From NCBI GenBank assembly GCA_018814305.1, contig JAHJAA010000041.1, positions 1 through 34,383 on the forward strand: a stretch of 34,383 bases of DNA. The letters are read 5' to 3'. The stretch's first letter is position 1. The number at the start of each line of letters is the position of its first letter. The notes under the pieces were generated by a model that saw only the letters and a list, made by a program, of their open reading frames with translations, made no database searches and had not been told where the DNA came from. Source of the stretch: Pseudomonadota bacterium (GTDB taxonomy: Bacteria > Desulfobacterota > Desulfobulbia > Desulfobulbales > JAGXFP01). This document shows positions 15,720-34,245 of the stretch, piece after piece. The translations under genes were made by a program, and so were the position numbers.

Positions 15720-17141
15720 TTATTTTATCTCGATGGCGCCGTTTTTGAAATTGACGGTGGCGTTTAAGTATCGGTTGCGGCGTCCGGCCCGGTCGAGGAT
15801 TGTGTGGGCCATTTCTGCCCTGGTTCCCGAGGCGCAGAAGAGAATAAGTTCTTGGCCAGCGGGGATTTCCGCCAGCAGGCGTCCAATCCGGTCAACCGGG
15901 AAATTGAGGGCTTCGGGGATGCTGCCGGCGGCAAATTCCTCGGGATTGCGGACATCCAGATAGAGTTTATCCACCGGCTTTCCATGGGTGCCACGGGCAA
16001 ATTCCTCAACGGAAATGGTCCCACTTTTCGGCTGAGGATGATAGACGAGGTTCCGTCGGGTTGGTCCGGTTTCCACCGGATAGCCCGCCGCCTGCCAGGT
16101 CTCGAAGCTGACCGGTAGGATGGTTACGGCTCGATAGCCCCGGTCGATGAGGGTTGCTGCGACCTTCTTCCGTTCCGGGCCATAAAGGATGATCGGGGCG
16201 TTTTTTTCCTCCGGGAAAGAGGTTTTGCCTGATCTGAAGTTTGCTGGGGTTAGATTGACGCTGCCCGGAAGATGACTGCGGGTTGCTTGGATTTCCGAAC
16301 GCAGATCGATCAGTACATGGGGCGTGCCGTTTTTGATGGCGGATTTTAACCATTCGATTGAAGTGATAGCCCAGTCGTGCTCCACCCAATCCGGAAACCC
16401 TCCGGCATAGACGGAAATCTTGGTATATCCGAGGCTCTTGGCCGTAAGGGCTGCGGTCGGACCAAGACCGCCTCCTGTTCCGGAAAAGATAATGGGGGTG
16501 GTTTTGTCCATGGGCAGGATCGTGCTCATGGCTTCAAAATCAATAAGCGGCAGCAGCATGGCCCCGGGGATATGGCCCATGCTGTATTGCTCGAGGGGCC
16601 GGACGTCGTACACCCGCAGAGCAGGATTTTTTATCCTCTGGAGGAATTCCCCATGGGACAAAAACTCTTCTTCGGGAATGAGCTTGTGATAGTCGAACAA
16701 GGTGATTGCTGTTGCCACTTTATCGCCTTGAGCTTCGATATAGTCAATAATGAGTCCCTGGTTGAGGGAGGTGGCCAGATCCTCAAACGAATCCACTGAA
16801 GAGAGGTTCGTAAGATTGGTGTATTTGATTACTTCTTTATGGGTGATAAAATCCATCTGGATGGTTTGCGACGGTGGGGCAATGAGATCAAGAAAACCAA
16901 ACATGACTCCAGCCTTCAAGTCATGACAGTTTGTGCATAGACCCGTCGAGGGGAGCGGTTCGTCGGGTAAGGCAAAGGACGGTCGCGATAGGGACGTCAG
17001 GTTGCCACAGAGTACAATTATCAGCAAAAAAACGGCGCGCAAGGGAAAACGATGGTGGTGGGAGATAATACTTGAGGTTTGGTTTAATAGAACTTTAGAG
17101 GGGGTCGGGTGGGAGCATAGGCCCAAAAAAACTTTTTTCAT
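15720..17141 (-). CDS. Exported triple-rhodanese protein with one heme-c-type CXXCH motif
   Basis: A 473-residue exported protein. After a long N-terminus with a hydrophobic segment (about 33-46), the mature part opens with CTNCH (Cys69, Cys72, His73), a single c-type heme motif. Three rhodanese-like domains follow at about 155-245, 255-345 and 370-470. Only the third has an active-site Cys loop (LFCASGTR, Cys436); the first has IFSGTGGG and the second ILYGPERK where the catalytic Cys would be. It aligns domain-for-domain with the selenocysteine rhodanese upstream, including the shared TRAEMAH and NATV ends, so the two are paralogs. The ATG at 17141 with GAGG about 8 nt upstream is preferred over the adjacent TTG at 17144. 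The likely place is the periplasm or outer face of the inner membrane. Heme attachment and sulfur transfer are inferred from motifs. Confidence 0.8.
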   Translation of the reverse strand: MKKVFLGLCSHPTPSKVLLNQTSSIISHHHRFPLRAVFLLIIVLCGNLTSLSRPSFALPDEPLPSTGLCTNCHDLKAGVMFGFLDLIAPPSQTIQMDFITHKEVIKYTNLTNLSSVDSFEDLATSLNQGLIIDYIEAQGDKVATAITLFDYHKLIPEEEFLSHGEFLQRIKNPALRVYDVRPLEQYSMGHIPGAMLLPLIDFEAMSTILPMDKTTPIIFSGTGGGLGPTAALTAKSLGYTKISVYAGGFPDWVEHDWAITSIEWLKSAIKNGTPHVLIDLRSEIQATRSHLPGSVNLTPANFRSGKTSFPEEKNAPIILYGPERKKVAATLIDRGYRAVTILPVSFETWQAAGYPVETGPTRRNLVYHPQPKSGTISVEEFARGTHGKPVDKLYLDVRNPEEFAAGSIPEALNFPVDRIGRLLAEIPAGQELILFCASGTRAEMAHTILDRAGRRNRYLNATVNFKNGAIEIK

Positions 17142-17538: not shown

Positions 17539-18864
17539 TTATTCTTCCGCAGTGCAGATACCCTCTTCACATTCGACAGTGGCTACCAGGAAGAGTGAAG
17601 TGAGTCCGGATTTTTTAAGGGTTTGATGGGCCATTTCAGCCCTGGCCCCGGTGGAGCAGTGAACCAGAATTTCCTTGTCCTTGGGCAGTTCCGTCAGGCG
17701 GTCATCGAGTTCATCCAGGGGGATGTTGATCGCGCCGGAAAACATGCCATCGGCGGTTTCGTCAAGATTACGGACATCGAGGATTATACGGCCCGTACCT
17801 TTGCCTGCAGCCACCTTATTGAAATCGTCGAGGCCGACTTCTCCTTCTTCAAGTTTGCGAACCCAATTGATCTCCGAAGCAGCGGGGCCAGTGACCAGGG
17901 TGTTGCCGGCGGCCTGCCAGCCGATCAACCCTCCCTCAACCAGTGAAATGGATTTGTATCCCCAGTCTTTAAGGGTTTTCATGGCCATTTTGATGTCAGC
18001 AGGTTCCCCATAGAGGACGAAGGGGGCAGCCTTGCTTGGGGGGAAATTGTCTTCGGCCTCAGCAAGTTCAGCCGCGGGGATGTTTACCGCCCCTTTGATG
18101 TGCCCGGAGGCTGCGGCCGGGGCGGGACGGAGGTCGAGAATAATGGCGTTGCCGTTTGCCACGAAATCATTACTGGCGACGAGTTTCTGCCCGGCCTTTT
18201 TCCAGCCCGGAGCTCCTTTCAGCATGACCTTGATTGAAGAATAGCCCAATTTACCCGCCAGACCGGCGGATGAGGTGCTCATCCCTCAGGTGGGGCCCCC
18301 GCAGTAAAAAATGAGCAGTTTGTCTTTATGGTCGTCGGGCAGCAGTGATTTTCCCTCACTTTTCATCTTCTCCACCGGGATGGAGACCGCGCCGGGAATA
18401 TGTCCTGCGGCATACGGTCCTGCCGGTCTGGAATCTATCAGTAAATAATTCCCTTGTTTGGGGCCAAGGGCGATCAGAGGAATCAGCTCCTCAGGTTGTA
18501 GCTCACTCACCCCGGGGGGCAGCTCAGCCAGTTTTGGTTCCACCGTGATCGCAATCTTGTTTTTTCCGTCCATCCGGTAGGTGATAATGGCCGCTTCGCC
18601 TTTTTGGGCATGTTCCATGCCGACGGTGGCATCGGTGAATTTGACATTGGCCGGGCCGGTTTTTTCTTCAATGGTGATGGTCCTGGCCTTGTTGGAGACC
18701 CCGAGGATTTTTCCTTTAGCCTTGGCGGTTTGGGTGGCGGTCGCGACCTTCTGGCTGCTGTCGGCCAGGTCGGTGGCGTAGGCAGAAACTCCAGAGGAAC
18801 CTGTGGTGATGAGTGTTGCCAGCATTATCGCCGGCACACTAAAGAGTAGTTTTCTTGAACGCAT
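17539..18864 (-). CDS. Exported triple-rhodanese selenoprotein (UGA read as selenocysteine)
   Basis: Read through the in-frame UGA at 18286-18288, this gives a 441-residue protein with Sec193. It has a signal peptide (MRSRKLLFSVPAIMLATLIT..., cleaved near SAYA), a small beta domain (about 50-112) and three rhodanese domains (about 120-225, 230-325, 340-435). In the first, the active-site loop reads IFYCGGPT-Sec-GMS where homologues I know have Cys; Cys188 is five residues earlier. The second lacks a Cys (VLYGEPAD); the third has HCSTGARAEMAH (Cys403). The reading frame, similarity and paralogy with the neighbouring gene all run on after the UGA, and a SECIS-like hairpin follows it. The start ATG has GGGAG 7 nt upstream. 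The C-terminus adds ECEEGICTAEE. Likely periplasmic sulfur or selenium-linked transfer. Without the UGA reading, it would be called two genes, 18286-18864 and 17539-18282. Confidence 0.85.
18253..18285 (-). promoter_or_regulatory. Bacterial SECIS hairpin candidate
   Basis: Directly 3' of the UGA on the minus strand, CCGCC (18269-18265) pairs with GGCGG (18259-18255), extended by a U-G and an A-U pair to about 7 bp, with apical loop GGUCU (18264-18260). The loop begins 21 nt after the UGA. E. coli fdhF has the same GGUCU bases in its apical loop, about 18 nt after its UGA, which is the element bound by SelB. The local sequence also allows an alternative 7-bp hairpin just upstream (GGAUGAG-CAC-CUCAUCC, 18284-18268) that cannot form at the same time. 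Confidence 0.8.
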
Positions 18865-18892: not shown

Positions 18893-18911
18893 ACTTCGGT
18901 GAATCCGAAGT
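18893..18911 (-). promoter_or_regulatory. 5'-leader hairpin of the selenoprotein gene
   Basis: ACTTCGG at 18893-18899 and CCGAAGT at 18905-18911 form a 7-bp stem with a 5-nt loop about 30 bases ahead of the ATG at 18864 on the minus strand. There is no T-run, so it is not an intrinsic terminator. It could be an mRNA-stabilising hairpin or a regulator binding site in the divergent promoter region shared with the gene at 19142. Confidence 0.35.
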
Positions 18912-24203: not shown

Positions 24204-24657
24204 TTCTCTTTCCTCATGAGATTCGAAGGGCTGAAACAGTCGATCGCAAAGACGAATGAGCAATGATCGGTTTGGTGGCGTCATTTGTCGGCCATATCAT
24301 AGCAGGATTTTTAACAAAGTGAATCCCTTTTGAAACCAAGGCTGTTCTTGTTGAAGACCGGGAGCGATGGTGTTTTGGAAAAGTAATAAGGGGGGATAAA
24401 ATAAAAGTGAAAAATTCGTCTGTCGGTGAGGTGCTTTTTCCTTGGTGGTTGAGGTACTATGAATAGAGTGGATACGGCAGACATTCGGTAAACACCATTT
24501 TGAAGAGGGTGAACGGGTATGCAGAGGATGACTTTAGTGGTGGCAGGGCTCTTGACCCTTCTGTCCGGGATGATGGTGGTTTAAAAGTCAGCTAAAATTA
24601 TGGAGTCTCCCCTGCTTCTTTGAGGAAGTAGGCTTGGAAGTGCCTTGGGGAAAATCG
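24204..24657. other. Intergenic region before the MORN-repeat gene
   Basis: About 450 bases between the divergent MFS and MORN genes. It holds both promoters, a purine-rich patch near 24391-24415 and one 21-codon reading frame with a good ribosome site (see entry at 24519-24584). No known RNA family or repeat is recognised here. Confidence 0.5.
24519..24584 (+). CDS. Possible 21-residue hydrophobic peptide
   Basis: ATG at 24519 with GAGGG about 8 nt upstream opens a frame encoding MQRMTLVVAGLLTLLSGMMVV, then TAA. It reads like a signal or lipoprotein-leader segment that stops before any mature sequence. It could be a small membrane peptide, a leader peptide in front of the MORN gene, or a remnant. 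There is no homolog that I can name, so this is a low-confidence call. Confidence 0.3.
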   Translation: MQRMTLVVAGLLTLLSGMMVV

Positions 24658-25713
24658 ATGGCCGAACATTCATCCAAAGAAGCTGAAATCATCTACAAAC
24701 ACGGCACCTATCGAGGTGATCTGGAGCAGGGACTTCCCCATGGAATGGGGATCTATTCCTGTGTCCAGTATACCTATAAAGGATTCTGGACCCATGGTTC
24801 GATGAATGGGATAGGCGAGATGACCGAAGCTGACGGCGCGGTATACAAGGGTGGATTCAGGGCGGATAGGAAGCATGGTCGGGGCACGTTCAAACACCCC
24901 AATGGGGTCAGATATGAGGGGTTCTGGGAAGATAACCTGCGACATGGGCATGGAACGCTCTTTCTTCCCGATGGCACCCGGAAAGAGGGGCTTTGGATTG
25001 AAGACCGGTATATAGGCGGGGCTGGTGATGATTTTGAAAACAGCATCGACCTGATCGTCGGTTTTGAGGAGCATCGTTTTTACCAAATGAATTCCGGAAA
25101 GGATGTGGTTCCCTTTCAAAACGGGACATACAGTGGAGATCTTAGAGATGGTAACCCCCATGGCAGAGGGACCTATCATGGCGAAGACTACATCTATGAC
25201 GGAATGTGGAAAAATGGGGTTATGGAAGGCCATGGAACCCTGGTAGAGCGGGATGGGGCGGTTTACGAGGGTGAATGGCGCGGGGGGAAGCGTTATGGCC
25301 AGGGGATAGAGATGACCCAATTTATTGGCGGGAAAACCAGGTATGAAGGGGCCTGGTCTGAGAATAAAAGGCATGGCCGGGGGATTCTCCGTTATTCCAA
25401 TGGAATGATTTATGATGGAGAATGGCTGGATGGAAAAAAACAGGGTTGGGGGGTCGAGGTCTCCAAGGTTCTTGGAATAAATACTCGGTTCGAGGGGGCC
25501 TGGGAAAATGATCAAAAGAACGGGCGCGGGATTGAACGTTCTTTTTTTGAGGGGATTGAGATCCGCTATGAAGGTGAGTGGAAAGATAATCGGAAAATCG
25601 GGGTGGGGGTTGAAACCACCGAGGATCATGTACTGATGAACACCCAGGGGCAATCTTCCCTGGCAAAACGGAAAAAGATCAAGGTCTACAGTCGATTCAC
25701 CGGGAAGAAGTGA
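24658..25713 (+). CDS. MORN-repeat protein
   Basis: A 351-residue protein made almost entirely of MORN repeats (YEGxWxxGxxxGxG), about 12 in all. Examples are VYKGGFRADRKHGRG, RYEGFWEDNLRHGHG, VYEGEWRGGKRYGQG, IYDGEWLDGKKQGWG and RYEGEWKDNRKIGVG. The two halves appear to be a duplication: GTYRGDLEQGLPHGMG at about residue 18 is repeated as GTYSGDLRDGNPHGRG at about 160, each followed by similar repeats. MORN repeats make an extended beta-solenoid that binds lipids or proteins; no enzyme domain is present. There is no signal peptide. The ATG at 24658 has GGGGA 6 nt upstream and is preferred over an in-frame TTG at 24634 that also has GAGGA. A basic tail closes it (KRKKIKVYSRFTGKK). Confidence 0.85.
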   Translation: MAEHSSKEAEIIYKHGTYRGDLEQGLPHGMGIYSCVQYTYKGFWTHGSMNGIGEMTEADGAVYKGGFRADRKHGRGTFKHPNGVRYEGFWEDNLRHGHGTLFLPDGTRKEGLWIEDRYIGGAGDDFENSIDLIVGFEEHRFYQMNSGKDVVPFQNGTYSGDLRDGNPHGRGTYHGEDYIYDGMWKNGVMEGHGTLVERDGAVYEGEWRGGKRYGQGIEMTQFIGGKTRYEGAWSENKRHGRGILRYSNGMIYDGEWLDGKKQGWGVEVSKVLGINTRFEGAWENDQKNGRGIERSFFEGIEIRYEGEWKDNRKIGVGVETTEDHVLMNTQGQSSLAKRKKIKVYSRFTGKK

Positions 25714-27354: not shown

Positions 27355-30300
27355 TTAATTACTGAGTTCCCGCCAGGTCTGCATTCCACTCCTGATCGCC
27401 CCGGGATTACTTTGTTCAACGGTGATAATGGCACCCGTACTGGTTTGCACAAAGGCCTTGGTCCCGTCGGCTGAACCACTGTGGATATTTGGGGTGGTCG
27501 CCAGACCAATTCCAACATCGATTTTGCGGAGATTTGTGGTCACACCGGCAGTAGTTTGAGAACCGATCACTGACTTGCGATACGCCGTGCCGGTACGGTA
27601 GAACGGCGCCCAGAGATAACTGTATCCTTCCGGGCTGCAAAGGGTCTCGGAAGGAACAAAGGTCGTGAAGGTTACCACATTTCCCAGAATCGCCGCCTGG
27701 CCGAGGTTTCGCTCTCCGTCAAGATCAAAATCGATTTTCCAGCCATGGTAGTAGTCCAGCCCTCCAAGATCTCGTTCGCTGATCTTATTATTCAATTCGG
27801 TGAACGTTGCAGAGTTGATCAACGCACCGTCGGTGTCTTTGATGACCCCGTTTAGATCACCGCTGACATTTTCGACCCAGGCACTGGAAGTATCAATCAA
27901 CCGCGCGCTATTGGTGAGTGAAAGATCGAGTTGATCTGCGGCGTCATAGGTTTCTTTCAGGCCGTAGTAACTCTGTGGGGCCTTGGCTTTTTTGTCTGAT
28001 CCTGCGGCAAGATACCGACCGGTGCCGAAATAGACCCAGGCCCGGAAGCCGTCAGAGGCCACAGAAGGTGACGCCATGACCGGTTGATGACCGGGGGTGG
28101 CAAAGAAGGTATTCATGTACCATTGCGCCGGATCCAGATCATCGTCCAGGACCAGGCGGTGCATCCCGCCGGTATGAAGGTTGTGGTCAAGGTTCGAGTT
28201 GGCGATTGATCCGAAATAGAGACTGTCAACCTTGAAATTGAGGTCATGGTCAACCGCGATCACGTCACTGAAGAATGAGTTGGGGAATGTCCCCGGATCA
28301 TTCACTACTAGAGGGAAACCTGCTTGAACTGCAGGCATCCCGGCGGTGGTGACGTACGGCAAGGCAAATCCACCGGTGCCACCAAGCTTCAGGATATAGA
28401 GTCTGGCCAACTGGCTGCTTTGTCCCTGCATCGCCTGGAGTGGAAGGGCCGGATCATAGGGCCCGGAACTTAAGGCCAGGTACCAGTCCATGGGCCAGGT
28501 CGTGATGTCCTGGTCGGGGCAGCTTACCTTGAGTCCACACCGTAACATCGGGATGGCGGTGGGGGCACCGACGGTAAAACCCAGGTTGGGGTCGGTAAAC
28601 TCGGCAAGGAGTTTGGGAGGGACTTCCGGGTTGGTAATGTCGAGCATGATATAGGCCGAGCGCATGGTCTGATCGTCAGTGCCATCGCCATTAAGATCGA
28701 CCCCGATGTTACCGCCACCAAATCTCATCCCCGCGACCAGTATCGTGCCCCAGCCACCGGGATGGTCGGGGCCGCTGATGAGATCGGTAGGATCGAAGAT
28801 CTTGGCGTCAAAGATATACGGTTTTTGATCCACGTAAAAGACATGGGAATAATCAACATCGGTCAGCCACTTGAGGTGGGGCCAGAGATTCTTGGGGATG
28901 TACATCCACATCTCAGCTCCCAGGTCGTACTGGACCTTTCCTGGGGGGCCCTTGAGGAATGATCTGGTGGCTCGATCATAATGGCCCCCATTAAATGCGT
29001 GAAGACCTCCGTCATTACCGCCGGCATAGACCATGGTTCGGCGGTTCCGGTAAAGCGCCCGGAAGGCCTGATAGGATTTATCTTGGTAGATTGTGTCGTA
29101 GTCCTCGGCGGGTTGGCTGACCACGGTGGGGGTTGAATAAACAATATCACCGAGTTTCCAGATTTCAGTGATGCCGTCACCGTCCCAGTCAATCTCCCGT
29201 GAACGGTAGCCAACTTGATCGACTCCCCTGATGTAATTGACAATCTTGTCTGCCTCTGCCGCATCGGCGGCGTTGAAATAGCCGGGGTAGGTAGCACCCA
29301 GGGCCCCGGCAAGGGTGGCCGGGGTGAAGGCAATTGCAGTGGTGCCGTTGGTGCTGGTAAAAATATATCGGTCATTGGCGGTGGCGGCATAGGAACCCTT
29401 CTGGGCTGAAGAGGCCCCGGCCAACCATTCACCGGCACTCCAGAGATAATGCAATTCGTTCAATTTGACGTTGTCTTCCATAAAGTCCGCGGCGTCATAA
29501 TGATCATCACCATCCGCATCACTATAGCGTCGGGCCCGGGCAGAATTGTTGACGGGATCGGTATAAAATTCAAGGATGTTATCCATGTCTGAAACCAGGG
29601 TGAAATCCTGGGGTGTTCCGAGGCAACCCGTATCACTGCAGTCTTCCCGGATATTACCGCGATCATCCAACCACAGGGAGTGGACATCTCCGGCCCAGGT
29701 TATTTCCCGCAGGGAGCTATCGATCTGTTTGGGATAGAAAACCGCCTGGTAAATAGCCCCTTCACCGCTTCGAGAGTTGGAGATAACCGAGGCGGCGGAA
29801 CCGGAAGCCGGTTCACCACCAATGGACTCAAAGACATCCCGGAGGGATTGATCCAATTCATCCGGATTGCTGGCCTCAATGAGGACGGTTCCCGCGTTGG
29901 CGGAGGTCTCGCCGAGAATGTTTTTGGGCTCACATTCCAGGTTCGGATCTGCTGGAACTTGGAGGGTGTTGGCCACTACGATATGGGTGACGATATTCTT
30001 TTTGTCTTCTCCCTCAACTGTCTGGTAAGTGCCTTGGTAGATCGAGGCCCCGTTCTTGTTGGCATAATAGACCAAATCATCCATCATGGTGCTGCCGAAG
30101 AGGGTGCTTACGGGATTTCCGGTCACACTGTCGATGCCCTTGCATTCGTAACTGGTGCCTTCGGTAATTCCTGCCTGCCAGGTTTCAGCCAGGACGGTGT
30201 CATTATGGGTGGCAACAAAGTCGGTGACTGGACTGGTCGCGTTCACACCGTCATAATCGGCCGTGGCGGCACCGTCGGTGATGATCAGAATATTGTTGGT

Positions 30301-32622
30301 TTGGCAGGAGGCAATTATGGGATCATACGAGGTCCATTTTACCCCGAGATCATCTTCAATACTGCCGGTGGATGAATTGGAAGTCCCGCCGTCGTTGGTA
30401 AAATAGAGCTTGGTCTCGGTTTCATCAATCGCCCCGTCACCGTTGTGATCCCAGTTGTGGGTAAATTTGACCTTGTCGCCTGGATTGTAGAGGGTCGCAT
30501 TGGTCCAGCCACCAACACCTAAGGCTGCGGCGTCGTGATCCCAGATAAAGTCGGCGGGATCCAATCGGAGATTGTTGACGTTATCCTGGGTGTAATAGCC
30601 GATGGCGTTAAACAGGGCTTCGGAGGTGGGGGTCCAGGCAGTGGCCTCGATATTATTGATCGCGGTGACCAATTGACTGTTATGGGTGATTCCGTCATCT
30701 ATATAGGAAATGACTCGGCCACCGTTGCGTTTGCTTGGATCAGGGAGCGATCCGGCATGGATGGCGGCACCTTTGTCAAGCAGGCAGTCATAGAGTGAGG
30801 CGATATATCGTCCGGAACCAACGGGTTGCTCAAGGGGATAACACTCGGACTTGGGTCCGGTATTGAATTCCATGGCCCCGAGGCGCAGGTTGTACTTGAA
30901 TTCCTGGATCAGGCCGGCGGGAGGATTGGGCATCGCGATCCTGCCCATGGCGGAAAGCAGGGGATTCCCCAACTGGGATTGGGTAGCGGCGTCGACCAAC
31001 AGGGCCGGAAGCCCCCAAGCCGTCCCTTGGGGATCGGTATAATCGGAAGGGTCGATGGTGGTGGGTTCATCGAGTCCTTGGCAATATTTTTTTAAGGACG
31101 CATCAACGCAGGTATAACCCTGGGGTTTGGGATTCACATCCAGCCCGGGATCATCATTCGTCCAGTCTACTGAAGTAATTCCTCCAGCGCCGGGGACGGC
31201 ATCCTGGACCTTCACCCAGTTGCCGGGACTGCCGACGCATTTATGTTGGGAGGCATTATAGGAGCCGTCACAGACATACCAGACATTCACGGTGCCGAAG
31301 CCGGCATTGGTGTTGCAAAAGGGATTGGCGTTGGTGGTTGGATCGGAGGCGGGGATACAAGTCCGGTCTTGCCAGACAAAGGCGCCGGCCTGGGGTTCCC
31401 AACATTGGCCGATATAACCGACTCCCCAAGGGCCTCCAACCGGATGGGTAGGGTCGTACTGACCATAGCAGACATCCGAGCCATTTTGATCCTCCGGAGG
31501 GGAATAGCCTCCCCCAGGAGCTGCCCCCGGGGTTGCGTTGTAAACGTTTTCACAGTCATTCACCAGGGAAGTGACTGTCCCGTTTCCTCCCTGCCAGGCT
31601 TGGTGCTTGTTATAATACCAACACTCCTGCATGATGTGGTTAAAGGCGGTCTGTGAGGCGAACAGGCCGGTTCCCATGGGGTCGAGGCAGGCTTTTGTTT
31701 CACTTTTCACGTTACCGAGATTTCCAGCGGCAAAGGCCTCGATGGCATCGCTGCAATCGGCGAAGATCATGCCGGTTTTCGAGACGCCATAGATGTCCAA
31801 CCGGGTATTGCTTAAGGCGCCATTGAAGAGAAGATCCGCGTTCTTTTCCAAAGCGGTCGGGGGGCGGATCCCAAAGGTTGCCACATAATAGCTTCCACCG
31901 TTGCCAATGGGGATATCCTTGATGAAACGCTTGCTGTCGCAACCTCGGGACTCAAGGACTGCTTGGAAATGGACAGGGTCATATCTGCCACCGGTCAGGA
32001 CCTTTTTCTCCACATCAAACTTGGAGGACATCAGCCAGTTCAGCAAACGGCCTTTAGCTGCAAAGGCGGTGACCACATCGGGGGCGGGGGCGACCGGGGT
32101 TTCGTCGATGGTCAGGCATAACTCAGTGCCGGTATACTTGGTGCCTGCCGCCGTGCTGCAGAAGGTAGCGGCATCAGCAGCCGATACGGTTTCAAATTGG
32201 CCAGCAATATATTTGTACCAACTACCCGCCGCCGGATTGAAATAACCAGAATAGGTTACGGCAGCATCGTAATCAACGTCGAGAATACCGTCGCCATCCA
32301 CATCCTCGGTGTCTGAGGTTGTGGTGTTGCCGTCATTGTTGAGGTCGGTATCGATAGCCCCATCACCATCAAGATCTTCAACCCCGCGCACATAGCAGTA
32401 GTTGTCACCCTGGCTGTTGCGATAGGCGGGATCGAACATACTGGCCGAGTTATCGATCAACAAGAGCAGATTGGGGTTAAGACCAACCTCCAGGAAGGCG
32501 GGAATCTTGGTATAGTCATACATGGTCTCGGCAAAGACGATATTTACTCCTCCGGATAAAGTCGCCGAGAGTGCAATACCCCATAAGAGACGGTACATAA
32601 TCTTACTGATTGTATGCTTCAT
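27355..32622 (-). CDS. pilY1: PilY1-type pilus-associated adhesin
   Basis: A 1755-residue exported protein. After the signal sequence (MKHTISKIMYRLLWGIALSATLSGGVNIVFA) the mature part has a VWA-type MIDAS motif LLIDNSASM (Asp57, Ser59, Ser61), a calcium-loop-rich region with DLDGDGAID, NNDGN and DVDGDGILD (about 83-116), and further loops DHNGDGAID, DADGDD, DWDGDGIT and DLNGDGTDD later. The C-terminal third (about 1130-1755) is the PilC/PilY1 beta-propeller region, with VYAGGNDGGLHAFNGG, MWMYIPKNLWPHLKWL, VFYVDQKPYIFDA and WGTILVAGMRFGG. PilY1 sits at the pilus tip and acts in adhesion and surface sensing. The ATG at 32622 has AGGTGG about 5 nt upstream; a longer reading to 32886 overlaps pilX and was rejected. 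It follows pilX by 88 bp in the minor-pilin operon. Confidence 0.92.
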   Translation of the reverse strand: MKHTISKIMYRLLWGIALSATLSGGVNIVFAETMYDYTKIPAFLEVGLNPNLLLLIDNSASMFDPAYRNSQGDNYCYVRGVEDLDGDGAIDTDLNNDGNTTTSDTEDVDGDGILDVDYDAAVTYSGYFNPAAGSWYKYIAGQFETVSAADAATFCSTAAGTKYTGTELCLTIDETPVAPAPDVVTAFAAKGRLLNWLMSSKFDVEKKVLTGGRYDPVHFQAVLESRGCDSKRFIKDIPIGNGGSYYVATFGIRPPTALEKNADLLFNGALSNTRLDIYGVSKTGMIFADCSDAIEAFAAGNLGNVKSETKACLDPMGTGLFASQTAFNHIMQECWYYNKHQAWQGGNGTVTSLVNDCENVYNATPGAAPGGGYSPPEDQNGSDVCYGQYDPTHPVGGPWGVGYIGQCWEPQAGAFVWQDRTCIPASDPTTNANPFCNTNAGFGTVNVWYVCDGSYNASQHKCVGSPGNWVKVQDAVPGAGGITSVDWTNDDPGLDVNPKPQGYTCVDASLKKYCQGLDEPTTIDPSDYTDPQGTAWGLPALLVDAATQSQLGNPLLSAMGRIAMPNPPAGLIQEFKYNLRLGAMEFNTGPKSECYPLEQPVGSGRYIASLYDCLLDKGAAIHAGSLPDPSKRNGGRVISYIDDGITHNSQLVTAINNIEATAWTPTSEALFNAIGYYTQDNVNNLRLDPADFIWDHDAAALGVGGWTNATLYNPGDKVKFTHNWDHNGDGAIDETETKLYFTNDGGTSNSSTGSIEDDLGVKWTSYDPIIASCQTNNILIITDGAATADYDGVNATSPVTDFVATHNDTVLAETWQAGITEGTSYECKGIDSVTGNPVSTLFGSTMMDDLVYYANKNGASIYQGTYQTVEGEDKKNIVTHIVVANTLQVPADPNLECEPKNILGETSANAGTVLIEASNPDELDQSLRDVFESIGGEPASGSAASVISNSRSGEGAIYQAVFYPKQIDSSLREITWAGDVHSLWLDDRGNIREDCSDTGCLGTPQDFTLVSDMDNILEFYTDPVNNSARARRYSDADGDDHYDAADFMEDNVKLNELHYLWSAGEWLAGASSAQKGSYAATANDRYIFTSTNGTTAIAFTPATLAGALGATYPGYFNAADAAEADKIVNYIRGVDQVGYRSREIDWDGDGITEIWKLGDIVYSTPTVVSQPAEDYDTIYQDKSYQAFRALYRNRRTMVYAGGNDGGLHAFNGGHYDRATRSFLKGPPGKVQYDLGAEMWMYIPKNLWPHLKWLTDVDYSHVFYVDQKPYIFDAKIFDPTDLISGPDHPGGWGTILVAGMRFGGGNIGVDLNGDGTDDQTMRSAYIMLDITNPEVPPKLLAEFTDPNLGFTVGAPTAIPMLRCGLKVSCPDQDITTWPMDWYLALSSGPYDPALPLQAMQGQSSQLARLYILKLGGTGGFALPYVTTAGMPAVQAGFPLVVNDPGTFPNSFFSDVIAVDHDLNFKVDSLYFGSIANSNLDHNLHTGGMHRLVLDDDLDPAQWYMNTFFATPGHQPVMASPSVASDGFRAWVYFGTGRYLAAGSDKKAKAPQSYYGLKETYDAADQLDLSLTNSARLIDTSSAWVENVSGDLNGVIKDTDGALINSATFTELNNKISERDLGGLDYYHGWKIDFDLDGERNLGQAAILGNVVTFTTFVPSETLCSPEGYSYLWAPFYRTGTAYRKSVIGSQTTAGVTTNLRKIDVGIGLATTPNIHSGSADGTKAFVQTSTGAIITVEQSNPGAIRSGMQTWRELSN

Positions 32623-32710
32623 AATCCCACCTGGTTTATTGAATCTTTCCACTGCGCTTTGTTCTGGTCGGATTGTCGGTTTTTCCGACAACCGGAACAA
32701 ATGCCCGTGG

Positions 32711-33304
32711 TTACTTAGTGATATATCGGTAATGCATGGCCAGATCGGTTTGGGTCTGATCCGCATCGTGTCCCGTTGACACAAGATTGTAGACAATAGT
32801 GGCCCCGCCACCGCCGAGGCCTTTGCCGATTCCGGCATAACCTGCGGCAACCTGGAGGGCGCCGCCCTTGGTGATTTTGGCGACAAGCCTTTGGGGGCGA
32901 ATTTCGGCCTTCAGGTCACCTTTCATCCGGATTTTGACATCTCCGGTCACGTTTTCATCCATATAGAAAGAGCCGTCTCCCAGGATATCAATCTTATTTC
33001 CGGCTGAATCTCCGACATAATCCGGGCTGAGGTTCGGATAGGGAAAAGGAGCTGGATCGGCGGGATTGTCCCACCCGGCATTAAATGCATTGTCTTCAAG
33101 AATATCTCCCGCTGCAATCATTCCGCCTTCGGAAAAACCGAAGGAACGTGCTTTGAACTGTTGGTAGGCTGCGATCCTGACATCCATGGAGGTATCCATG
33201 CTGATGCCGACCACGGTCACTGAAATTACCAGGATTAACAGCAGGGCCGAGACCAGGGCCATACCTCGTTGGGAGGTCGGAATTTTAAGCAGTTCACTTT
33301 TCAT
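32711..33304 (-). CDS. pilX: PilX-type minor pilin assembly protein
   Basis: A 197-residue protein with the PilX N-terminal pattern SQRGMALVSALLLILVISVTVVGISMDTSMDVRIAAYQQFKARSFGFSEGGMIAAGD: a short leader, a Gly before Met (prepilin peptidase site), and a hydrophobic helix. The rest is a globular beta-rich domain. Its ATG overlaps the pilV stop by four bases (ATGA), so it is coupled to it. It helps prime the pilus with PilV, PilW and PilY1. Confidence 0.85.
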   Translation of the reverse strand: MKSELLKIPTSQRGMALVSALLLILVISVTVVGISMDTSMDVRIAAYQQFKARSFGFSEGGMIAAGDILEDNAFNAGWDNPADPAPFPYPNLSPDYVGDSAGNKIDILGDGSFYMDENVTGDVKIRMKGDLKAEIRPQRLVAKITKGGALQVAAGYAGIGKGLGGGGATIVYNLVSTGHDADQTQTDLAMHYRYITK

Positions 33305-33705
33305 GGCCGCACCATAACTTTTTTAATGGTCAGGGTTTTGGGCTTTATGGCTACCGCATTCCACGTGGAGGTGAATTCAATCATCTTGGTCAGGGGACTG
33401 GGGCAGGCATCACGAACCGTCCAGCGGACATCATCCAATTGGAACTTCCCAAGGGTGAAAGTATCCCCGGAAACATGGGAACCAAGGGCCATCAATGGGC
33501 TATTGTAGCCTTCCAGCCAGAAGCGTTCTAATTCGCCGTTGGACAGCATGATCGACTGGGAGAGTTCACTTGAGTATATACGGCTATATCTGCTGGAAGA
33601 TTTTAAGGTTGTGTAGGCCAGCATGGCAAAGGCAAGTATTGCAACGGCGAAGACCACCTCGAGCAGGGTGAATCCAGAGGTCTTTCTGAGGATGAGTGTG
33701 CTCAT
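33301..33705 (-). CDS. pilV: PilV-type minor pilin
   Basis: A 134-residue type IV prepilin. The N-terminus LRKTSGFTLLEVVFAVAILAFAML shows the G-F cleavage site, the Glu at mature position 5 and the hydrophobic helix. The C-terminal domain resembles PilV/FimT. The ribosome site before ATG 33705 is AGGAGG. It is separated by 15 bases from the pilW stop and overlaps pilX, so these genes form a tight minor-pilin operon. Confidence 0.85.
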   Translation of the reverse strand: MSTLILRKTSGFTLLEVVFAVAILAFAMLAYTTLKSSSRYSRIYSSELSQSIMLSNGELERFWLEGYNSPLMALGSHVSGDTFTLGKFQLDDVRWTVRDACPSPLTKMIEFTSTWNAVAIKPKTLTIKKVMVRP

Positions 33706-33720
33706 AGTTCCTCCTTCATG

Positions 33721-34245
33721 CTATTCTATGCCTGCATTACGCAGGTAAATGGTAGATGAGGCCAGCATGCGGTATCGGTATTCTCCTTTATCGGCCATAG
33801 GAGCCTGGGAAGCGGGTGAACCGCCGCCGCCATTGGCGCTCCCAAAGGTATTTACCACACTGTAATATGGACTGTTGGGGTAATCATAGGTGGTTTTGTT
33901 AAGGTAGCGATATATCGGTTCACTCCTGGCCAGTAAAAAGACCCGGATTGCCCGGGCGGCTTCTGCTGGATACGTGGTGCCGCCGACGGTGAAACTATTC
34001 TGCCAAGCTTCATCGGTCAGGTCGTTGTCCGCATCGGTATCGAAAATGAATTGAAACTGCAGGTCCTCGATGTTGTTGGCGATTTTATTGTTTGTTCCGT
34101 TGTAATAGAGGTCTTTGTCCCGGATGAAGTAGGTCGCAATATTGAGTCGGTATACACTGGCCTGATTGAGGGTTCCATAGGCTAATTCAAGGTCATTGGT
34201 CGTATTGAGCATCCCGGCAACATGTTCGATGGTTCCTAGGTTTCC
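33721..34245 (-). pseudogene. pilW: PilW-type minor pilin, 5' end lost to an insertion sequence
   Basis: The remaining 3' part encodes about 175 residues of a PilW-like pilin C-terminal domain (GTIEHVAGMLNTTNDLELAYG, ATYFIRDKDLYYNG, NIEDLQFQFIFDTDADNDL, AIRVFLLARSEPIY, YRYRMLASSTIYLRN). It lacks the N-terminal prepilin leader and helix. Reading upstream in frame, the pilW-like sequence runs to about 34246, where it meets the transposase end; the remainder is likely beyond the right edge. The ATG at 34212 is internal and would give a leaderless protein. Position and order (pilW, pilV, pilX, pilY1) fit a minor-pilin operon in which the insertion probably inactivates pilW and could also alter expression of the genes after it. 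Confidence 0.7.

Follow-up and report, generated by a model that had tools for sequence, protein, structure and literature searches.

A UGA codon almost certainly read as selenocysteine in a predicted periplasmic triple-rhodanese protein of Desulfobulbales

Gene Layout and Reading Frame

The window, that is, the whole stretch of 34,383 nucleotides analysed here (contig JAHJAA010000041.1), carries on its minus strand a gene (17539-18864, stop codon included) whose 441-residue product comprises a signal-like sequence, a small beta domain and three rhodanese domains. With UGA read as selenocysteine (Sec), the complement of 17539-18864 reads without interruption over 441 codons, from an ATG at 18864 to a TAA stop at 17541-17539, its only internal UGA being codon 193 (18288-18286, followed by GGG). 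The original prediction had joined two open frames, 18286-18864 and 17539-18282; these coordinates proved right, both sharing one frame and yielding together 441 residues with U193.

Standard annotation would give two ORFs at this place and, according to the ORF list, the downstream one has its own ATG two codons past the UGA, as would be expected if the UGA were a true stop and the ORFs were either the pieces of a pseudogene or two half-proteins translated independently. The UGA lies, however, inside a rhodanese domain: Pfam assigns three such domains to the joined product (E 3.8e-39) with the UGA within the first, confirming that this domain spans it, and the front piece by itself, because the UGA cuts this first domain, covers the Rhodanese model no further than position 70 of 102. 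Also against a true stop, pN/pS values relative to four relatives were 0.38-0.44 before the UGA and 0.35-0.44 after it, these codon comparisons indicating that purifying selection is equal on both sides.

Upstream of the start codon, a perfect 7-bp inverted repeat (ACTTCGG-ATTCA-CCGAAGT, 18893-18911, minus strand) folds into a leader hairpin of -8.9 kcal/mol (z -3.6), a candidate operator or 5'UTR element. Elsewhere in the window, to judge by the sequence, 24634-25713 (plus strand) would encode a protein made almost entirely of MORN-like repeats, and 27355-34212 (minus strand) holds a putative type IV pilus tip/minor pilin cluster with a PilY1-like protein of 1843 aa and pilin-like proteins.

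Protein Architecture

The predicted structure (mean pLDDT of 91) displays a small beta domain (residues 46-110) followed by three rhodanese domains. According to Pfam, domain 1 extends over residues 136-224 (18193-18459, minus strand) and bears the loop CGGPTU. Domain 2, placed by sequence, Pfam and the model at about residues 240-320 (17905-18147, minus strand, limits approximate), has the loop YGEPAD, and is probably not catalytic since this loop contains no Cys. Domain 3, placed by sequence and Pfam at about residues 358-424 (17593-17793, minus strand, limits approximate), exhibits the canonical loop C403-STGAR, with only one of 113 aligned rows lacking the Cys at this position. Classical rhodanese loops have six residues, with the Cys first and a basic residue (Arg or Lys) often closing them. 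Regarding this C-x4-R/K pattern of thiosulfate sulfurtransferases, CSTGAR of domain 3 fits, CGGPTU of domain 1 differs and domain 2 has no Cys.

Cys188 (18301-18303, minus strand), the equivalent of the rhodanese catalytic Cys, and Cys or Sec at position 193 are both invariant in 73 aligned relatives. Sec193 had been envisaged as a replacement for a redox or sulfur-transfer Cys; the classical sulfur-accepting Cys is, however, retained as Cys188, and Sec193 is therefore regarded as a second redox residue. Judged from the alignment, Sec193 takes the place of the closing Arg/Lys and, with Cys188 before it, forms a CxxxxU loop that reads CxxxxC in the Cys relatives.

A further Cys pair, C432-x4-C437 (17554-17571, minus strand), lies near the C-terminus and is fully conserved among the first 16 relatives to be aligned. 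When a simple sequence pattern was applied to 113 rows, an N-terminal CxxCH (heme c) motif was found in 20 and the tail Cys pair in 59, with 34 showing neither and none showing both, a distribution suggesting that N-terminal heme c and tail Cys pair may be alternative electron relays. This exclusivity follows clades, and thus represents few independent events.

The original view of an envelope protein agrees with the signal-like N-terminal sequence and with the lipobox-like sequences of many relatives (an N-terminal lipobox-like Cys in 40/113 rows by a crude pattern, absent from the window protein), from which we infer export to the periplasm. The closest solved relatives of domain 3 include the rhodanese domains of persulfide/CoA-disulfide reductases, the likeness to persulfide reductase amounting to 40% identity. 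A fold search with the whole protein matched rhodanese domains and gave poor multi-domain superpositions (rmsd over 12 A); resemblance is therefore drawn upon at the level of single domains only.

Conservation of the UGA Codon

Searching the genomes of 194 relatives with stops read through returned more than 100 full-length homologs, mostly with exactly one internal TGA. In the alignments examined, this TGA sits at query codon 193, where other relatives have TGC or TGT, resulting in YCGGPT[U/C]GMS. For the column of residue 193 (18286-18288, minus strand; CGGPT-U-GMS loop of domain 1), 111 full-length relatives divide into 86 with a single UGA and 25 with Cys. The Cys homologs that the original prediction had proposed to look for thus exist among close relatives, with Cys exactly at this position (YCGGPTCGMS), and none of the homologs compared ends at the UGA, the pattern it had named as speaking against Sec. 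Because the UGA occupies the identical column in 86/111 relatives and Cys occupies it in the other 25, chance is excluded.

On a tree of these 111 proteins (86 Sec and 25 Cys), built with residue 193 masked, at least 12-13 changes between the Sec and Cys states were counted. One Sec/Cys pair (L101/L099) is still 92.5% identical, and stem loss has begun in its Cys gene. Named relatives are Desulfobulbales (Desulfogranum, Desulfofustis, Desulfoprunum and Desulfosediminicola), together with many metagenome genomes labelled Desulfobulbaceae, Desulfocapsa or Desulfurivibrio. A wider draw on the phylum detected the family in 42/395 genomes, mostly with one TGA, in the same column in those examined, and with UVLS in place of UGMS in some.

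A SECIS Hairpin Tied to the UGA

The predicted SECIS-like hairpin with loop GGUCU was found at 18269-18255 on the minus strand (CCGCC-GGUCU-GGCGG), with 21 nt between UGA and loop. In the bSECIS model, the hairpin lies ~16-37 nt from the UGA and has a G among its first two loop bases, and both features are present here. Taken singly, its folding energy is mildly better than that of shuffles (z -2.1), and a search of Rfam with the hairpin returned no matching model; the decisive evidence is comparative rather than the fold of a single sequence.

Across the order, 64/64 UGA genes versus 1/23 Cys genes retain the 4-bp core together with a G as second loop base (p=1e-19), a p value that does not tally independent events because the rows are related. 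Nonetheless, since Sec/Cys exchanges recur, common descent alone is an unlikely cause of the link between hairpin and UGA. Codon usage within the hairpin behaves similarly: Gly201 is GGT in 61/61 UGA genes versus 2/5 Cys genes, and Ala203 is GCG in 63/64 versus 5/22, synonymous codons in these alignments being frozen only where the UGA is present. Among 66 UGA sequences, four stem pairs have changed on both sides in a compensatory manner, the stem covariation score lies above all 500 shuffles (0/500) and clearly above slid controls, and RNAalifold recovered the same four-pair core.

Selenocysteine Machinery

All four genes whose presence had been proposed as a check were found in the genome, namely selA (624 bits), selB (356 bits), selD (384 bits) and selC, detected by ARAGORN as a tRNA-SeC with anticodon TCA (UCA). 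A second selD contains an in-frame TGA.

Considering that (i) the same UGA recurs in 86 relatives, with Cys in 25 and almost no other internal stops, (ii) the SECIS is tied to the UGA and lost with Cys, (iii) selection is alike on both sides of the UGA, and (iv) the genome carries Sec machinery, UGA193 should encode Sec, being neither stop nor pseudogene, with a probability that we put at about 98%. A true stop, despite the two annotated ORFs, is thereby reduced to a very slight chance and, on UGA conservation, SECIS and selection, was ruled out as a working explanation.

The genome also encodes, at G000:C19:1940-3979 (loci L010 and L001), a further SelB of 643 aa, which diverges from the usual one on contig C10 (~29% identity). 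It directly adjoins the sole tRNA-Sec found (59 bits, with 70-74 in four relatives), a selD lies nearby (C19:9783-10703), and the three possibly constitute a second Sec-insertion set. Among 116 genomes, a close copy of this SelB (80%) appears only in G012.

Across relatives, selA occurs in 76/80 genomes, Cys users included, so its presence is uninformative as a correlate of the Sec/Cys state. It was not detected in G042, G049, G073 and G111, some near-closed, all of which have selB and selC (loci L238-L241 and L246-L249) as well as a UGA-bearing copy of the gene; SepSecS, the archaeal-type substitute, was sought in these four and not found. These four relatives count against the overall reading.

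Relationship to Known Sec-Rhodaneses

As originally noted, Sec-containing rhodanese-related proteins are already known, having been predicted since 2005, and the window protein therefore adds to an already predicted sort. A 2026 review distinguishes five forms, of which form 1 (PF00581, UxxS, WP_010941598.1, Zhang and Gladyshev 2005) is listed with neither domain plan, CxxxxU pairing nor function (PMC13188914). The window protein resembles form 1, by motif alone, in its PF00581 rhodanese domain, single Sec and U-x-x-S (here U-G-M-S). We take the form 1 representative to be a Geobacter sulfurreducens protein.

Two other forms were excluded by score and motif. Form 3 (NF041203, rhodanese_LYCAU) is likewise rhodanese-related with Sec beside the active-site Cys, but its motif is CxU instead of CxxxxU and the window protein scores 46.5 against a cut-off of 115. 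Form 5 (NF045694, TsoB, a rhodanese/DsbD fusion) has a rhodanese part that matches domain 1 of the window protein, but it contains two Sec (UxxxxU) and a DsbD-like part, whereas the window protein has one Sec and scores 49.4 against a cut-off of 805. In general, no NCBIfam model reaches its cut-off for the window protein or for three related Sec forms, and the anticipated splitting of the gene by automatic annotation is for this reason likely; in the deep-Sep paper, 195/298 known selenoprotein genes were annotated correctly in the test genomes.

A likeness for the loop is offered by BH2092 (PDB 3nhv, 3o3w), a CxxxxC rhodanese with Cys at both loop positions that aligns to YCGGPT-U; it has one domain and no Sec, unlike the three domains and Sec of the window protein.

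A Probable Link to Thiosulfate Disproportionation

In genome G087, most probably that of Desulfolithobacter dissulfuricans GF1, an ortholog occupies 1,559,692-1,560,978. A rhodanese of GF1, GF1_13980, is reported as detected only during thiosulfate disproportionation (PMC9751629). With genes fitting the TtrA, PhsA, TusA, Dct and hydrogenase tags of that study as anchors, interpolation from GF1_10890 (~1228 kb) to GF1_18100 (~2013 kb) gives 1564 kb as the expected position of gene 13980. The Sec-rhodanese lies 3-4 kb away from this point, and the stretches examined between 1.44 and 1.645 Mb showed no further rhodanese. The ortholog is thus probably GF1_13980, by locus-tag interpolation rather than by annotation.

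Periplasmic rhodaneses are expressed yet unexplained in sulfur-disproportionating and sulfide-oxidising Desulfobulbales (PMC13047784, PMC9751629), strongly so in Desulfurivibrio alkaliphilus (PMC13047784), and in Desulfocapsa sulfexigens the rhodanese genes UWK_03368 and UWK_03369 lie side by side (PMC3739170) and may be one UGA-split gene of the Sec-rhodanese family. If such a periplasmic rhodanese is a selenoenzyme, models built on the split annotation lack its catalytic residue, and part of the sulfur cycle would be limited by the availability of selenium. The reason for using Sec could then be tested on the Sec/Cys pairs that numerous natural exchanges have already produced.

Proposed Function

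On balance, we lean towards a periplasmic sulfane-sulfur redox/transfer enzyme of sulfur-metabolising Desulfobulbales, probably involved in thiosulfate/sulfur turnover. The comparisons show UGA193 to be read as Sec under the direction of the hairpin immediately downstream and of the genome's own SelA/SelB/SelC/SelD. For the reaction, substrate and electron partner of the protein we infer the following. Domain 3, like classical rhodaneses, would form a persulfide at its C403-STGAR loop with sulfane sulfur taken from thiosulfate or polysulfide, and the Cys188-x4-Sec193 pair of domain 1 would attack or receive this sulfur. The pair would alternate between reduced thiol/selenol and selenenylsulfide, so that sulfur transfer is proposed to be coupled to electron transfer, and the C-terminal Cys pair (in relatives, the N-terminal heme c) would re-reduce or re-oxidise it. 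This mechanism is favoured by the invariance of C188 and C/U193, near-invariant C403, heme/tail exclusivity, the CxxxxC of BH2092 and the persulfide-reductase likeness of domain 3; the rows with neither heme nor tail Cys pair (34/113) speak against it.

A plain sulfurtransferase, in which Sec193 stabilises or carries a persulfide (Cys188-S-Se-Sec193) with no net redox and sulfur is delivered to another protein, is an alternative of lower yet appreciable likelihood. Rhodaneses commonly act as sulfur carriers, and both the rhodanese fold throughout and the canonical CSTGAR of domain 3 would suit this role. Electron transfer is, on the contrary, indicated by the CxxxxU/CxxxxC pair with its alternative heme c or dithiol modules, and redox roles are thought usual for most selenoproteins (PMC13188914).

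Conserved neighbours in the window and in relatives are housekeeping and regulatory, namely an rfaE-like kinase, yicC, gmk, rlmB and two-component genes, and no sulfur genes were found next to the selenoprotein gene in either, a point against the favoured sulfur role; the neighbourhood was accordingly set aside as a guide to function. Upstream of the gene, L052-L055, L064 and L065 have a sensor-kinase-like gene and a sigma-54-type response regulator, both absent beside the window copy.

The occurrence of these two regulatory genes in several close relatives, together with the resemblance of the CxxxxU and C-terminal Cys pairs to thiol-relay enzymes, would agree with an envelope-stress oxidoreductase using the rhodanese scaffold to act through CxxxxU on protein disulfides or peroxides. 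This is an unlikely assignment, considering that nearly all relatives keep the domain-3 sulfurtransferase loop intact, needless for a pure disulfide enzyme, and that the protein was probably detected during thiosulfate disproportionation.

More improbable still is a role in handling selenite/tellurite or metals instead of sulfur, of the kind put forward for the ext cluster of Geobacter. The comparison rests on descriptions of ExtH of the extHIJKL conduit, an exported rhodanese-family protein of similar size (49 kDa) from the same broad bacterial group. As described in the passages on the cluster, this lipoprotein adjoins ExtI, needed for selenite/tellurite reduction, and ExtKL, a predicted Sec cytochrome, and those passages mention no Sec in ExtH itself (PMC5877670, PMC6148476). 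ExtH is, however, set among the porin ExtI and cytochromes, whereas porin or multiheme cytochrome genes are absent beside the gene in the window and in relatives.

Returning to the sulfane-sulfur enzyme, a more specific version can be offered tentatively: a Sec-dependent periplasmic oxidoreductase with Sec-bearing, silent and classical rhodanese domains and a swappable dithiol/heme c module, serving thiosulfate or sulfur disproportionation and overlooked because annotation splits the gene at the UGA.

Related Triple-Rhodanese Genes

The neighbouring paralog (15720-17141, minus strand), a triple-rhodanese with an N-terminal CTNCH (heme c) motif, is not a selenoprotein. It had been said to align across the break, and does so (33% identity, tblastn E 9e-23). 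The alignment, however, opens a three-residue gap immediately before and at the UGA, leaving the paralog with no Cys or Sec at position 193. Its domain-3 loop, CASGTR, is intact, C188, U193 and the tail Cys pair are all absent, and by this alignment it has lost the equivalents of Cys188 and Sec193. The tandem of selenoprotein gene and paralog also occurs in two further genomes (G001 and G002).

A second Sec-containing triple-rhodanese is encoded on contig C55 of the same genome (G000:C55, L051:2960-4432, plus strand). It shows the loop YCRGFTUGMSPHF, an N-terminal NCAGCH heme motif and a different sequence after the UGA, and its type is common to three relatives (L127-L129).
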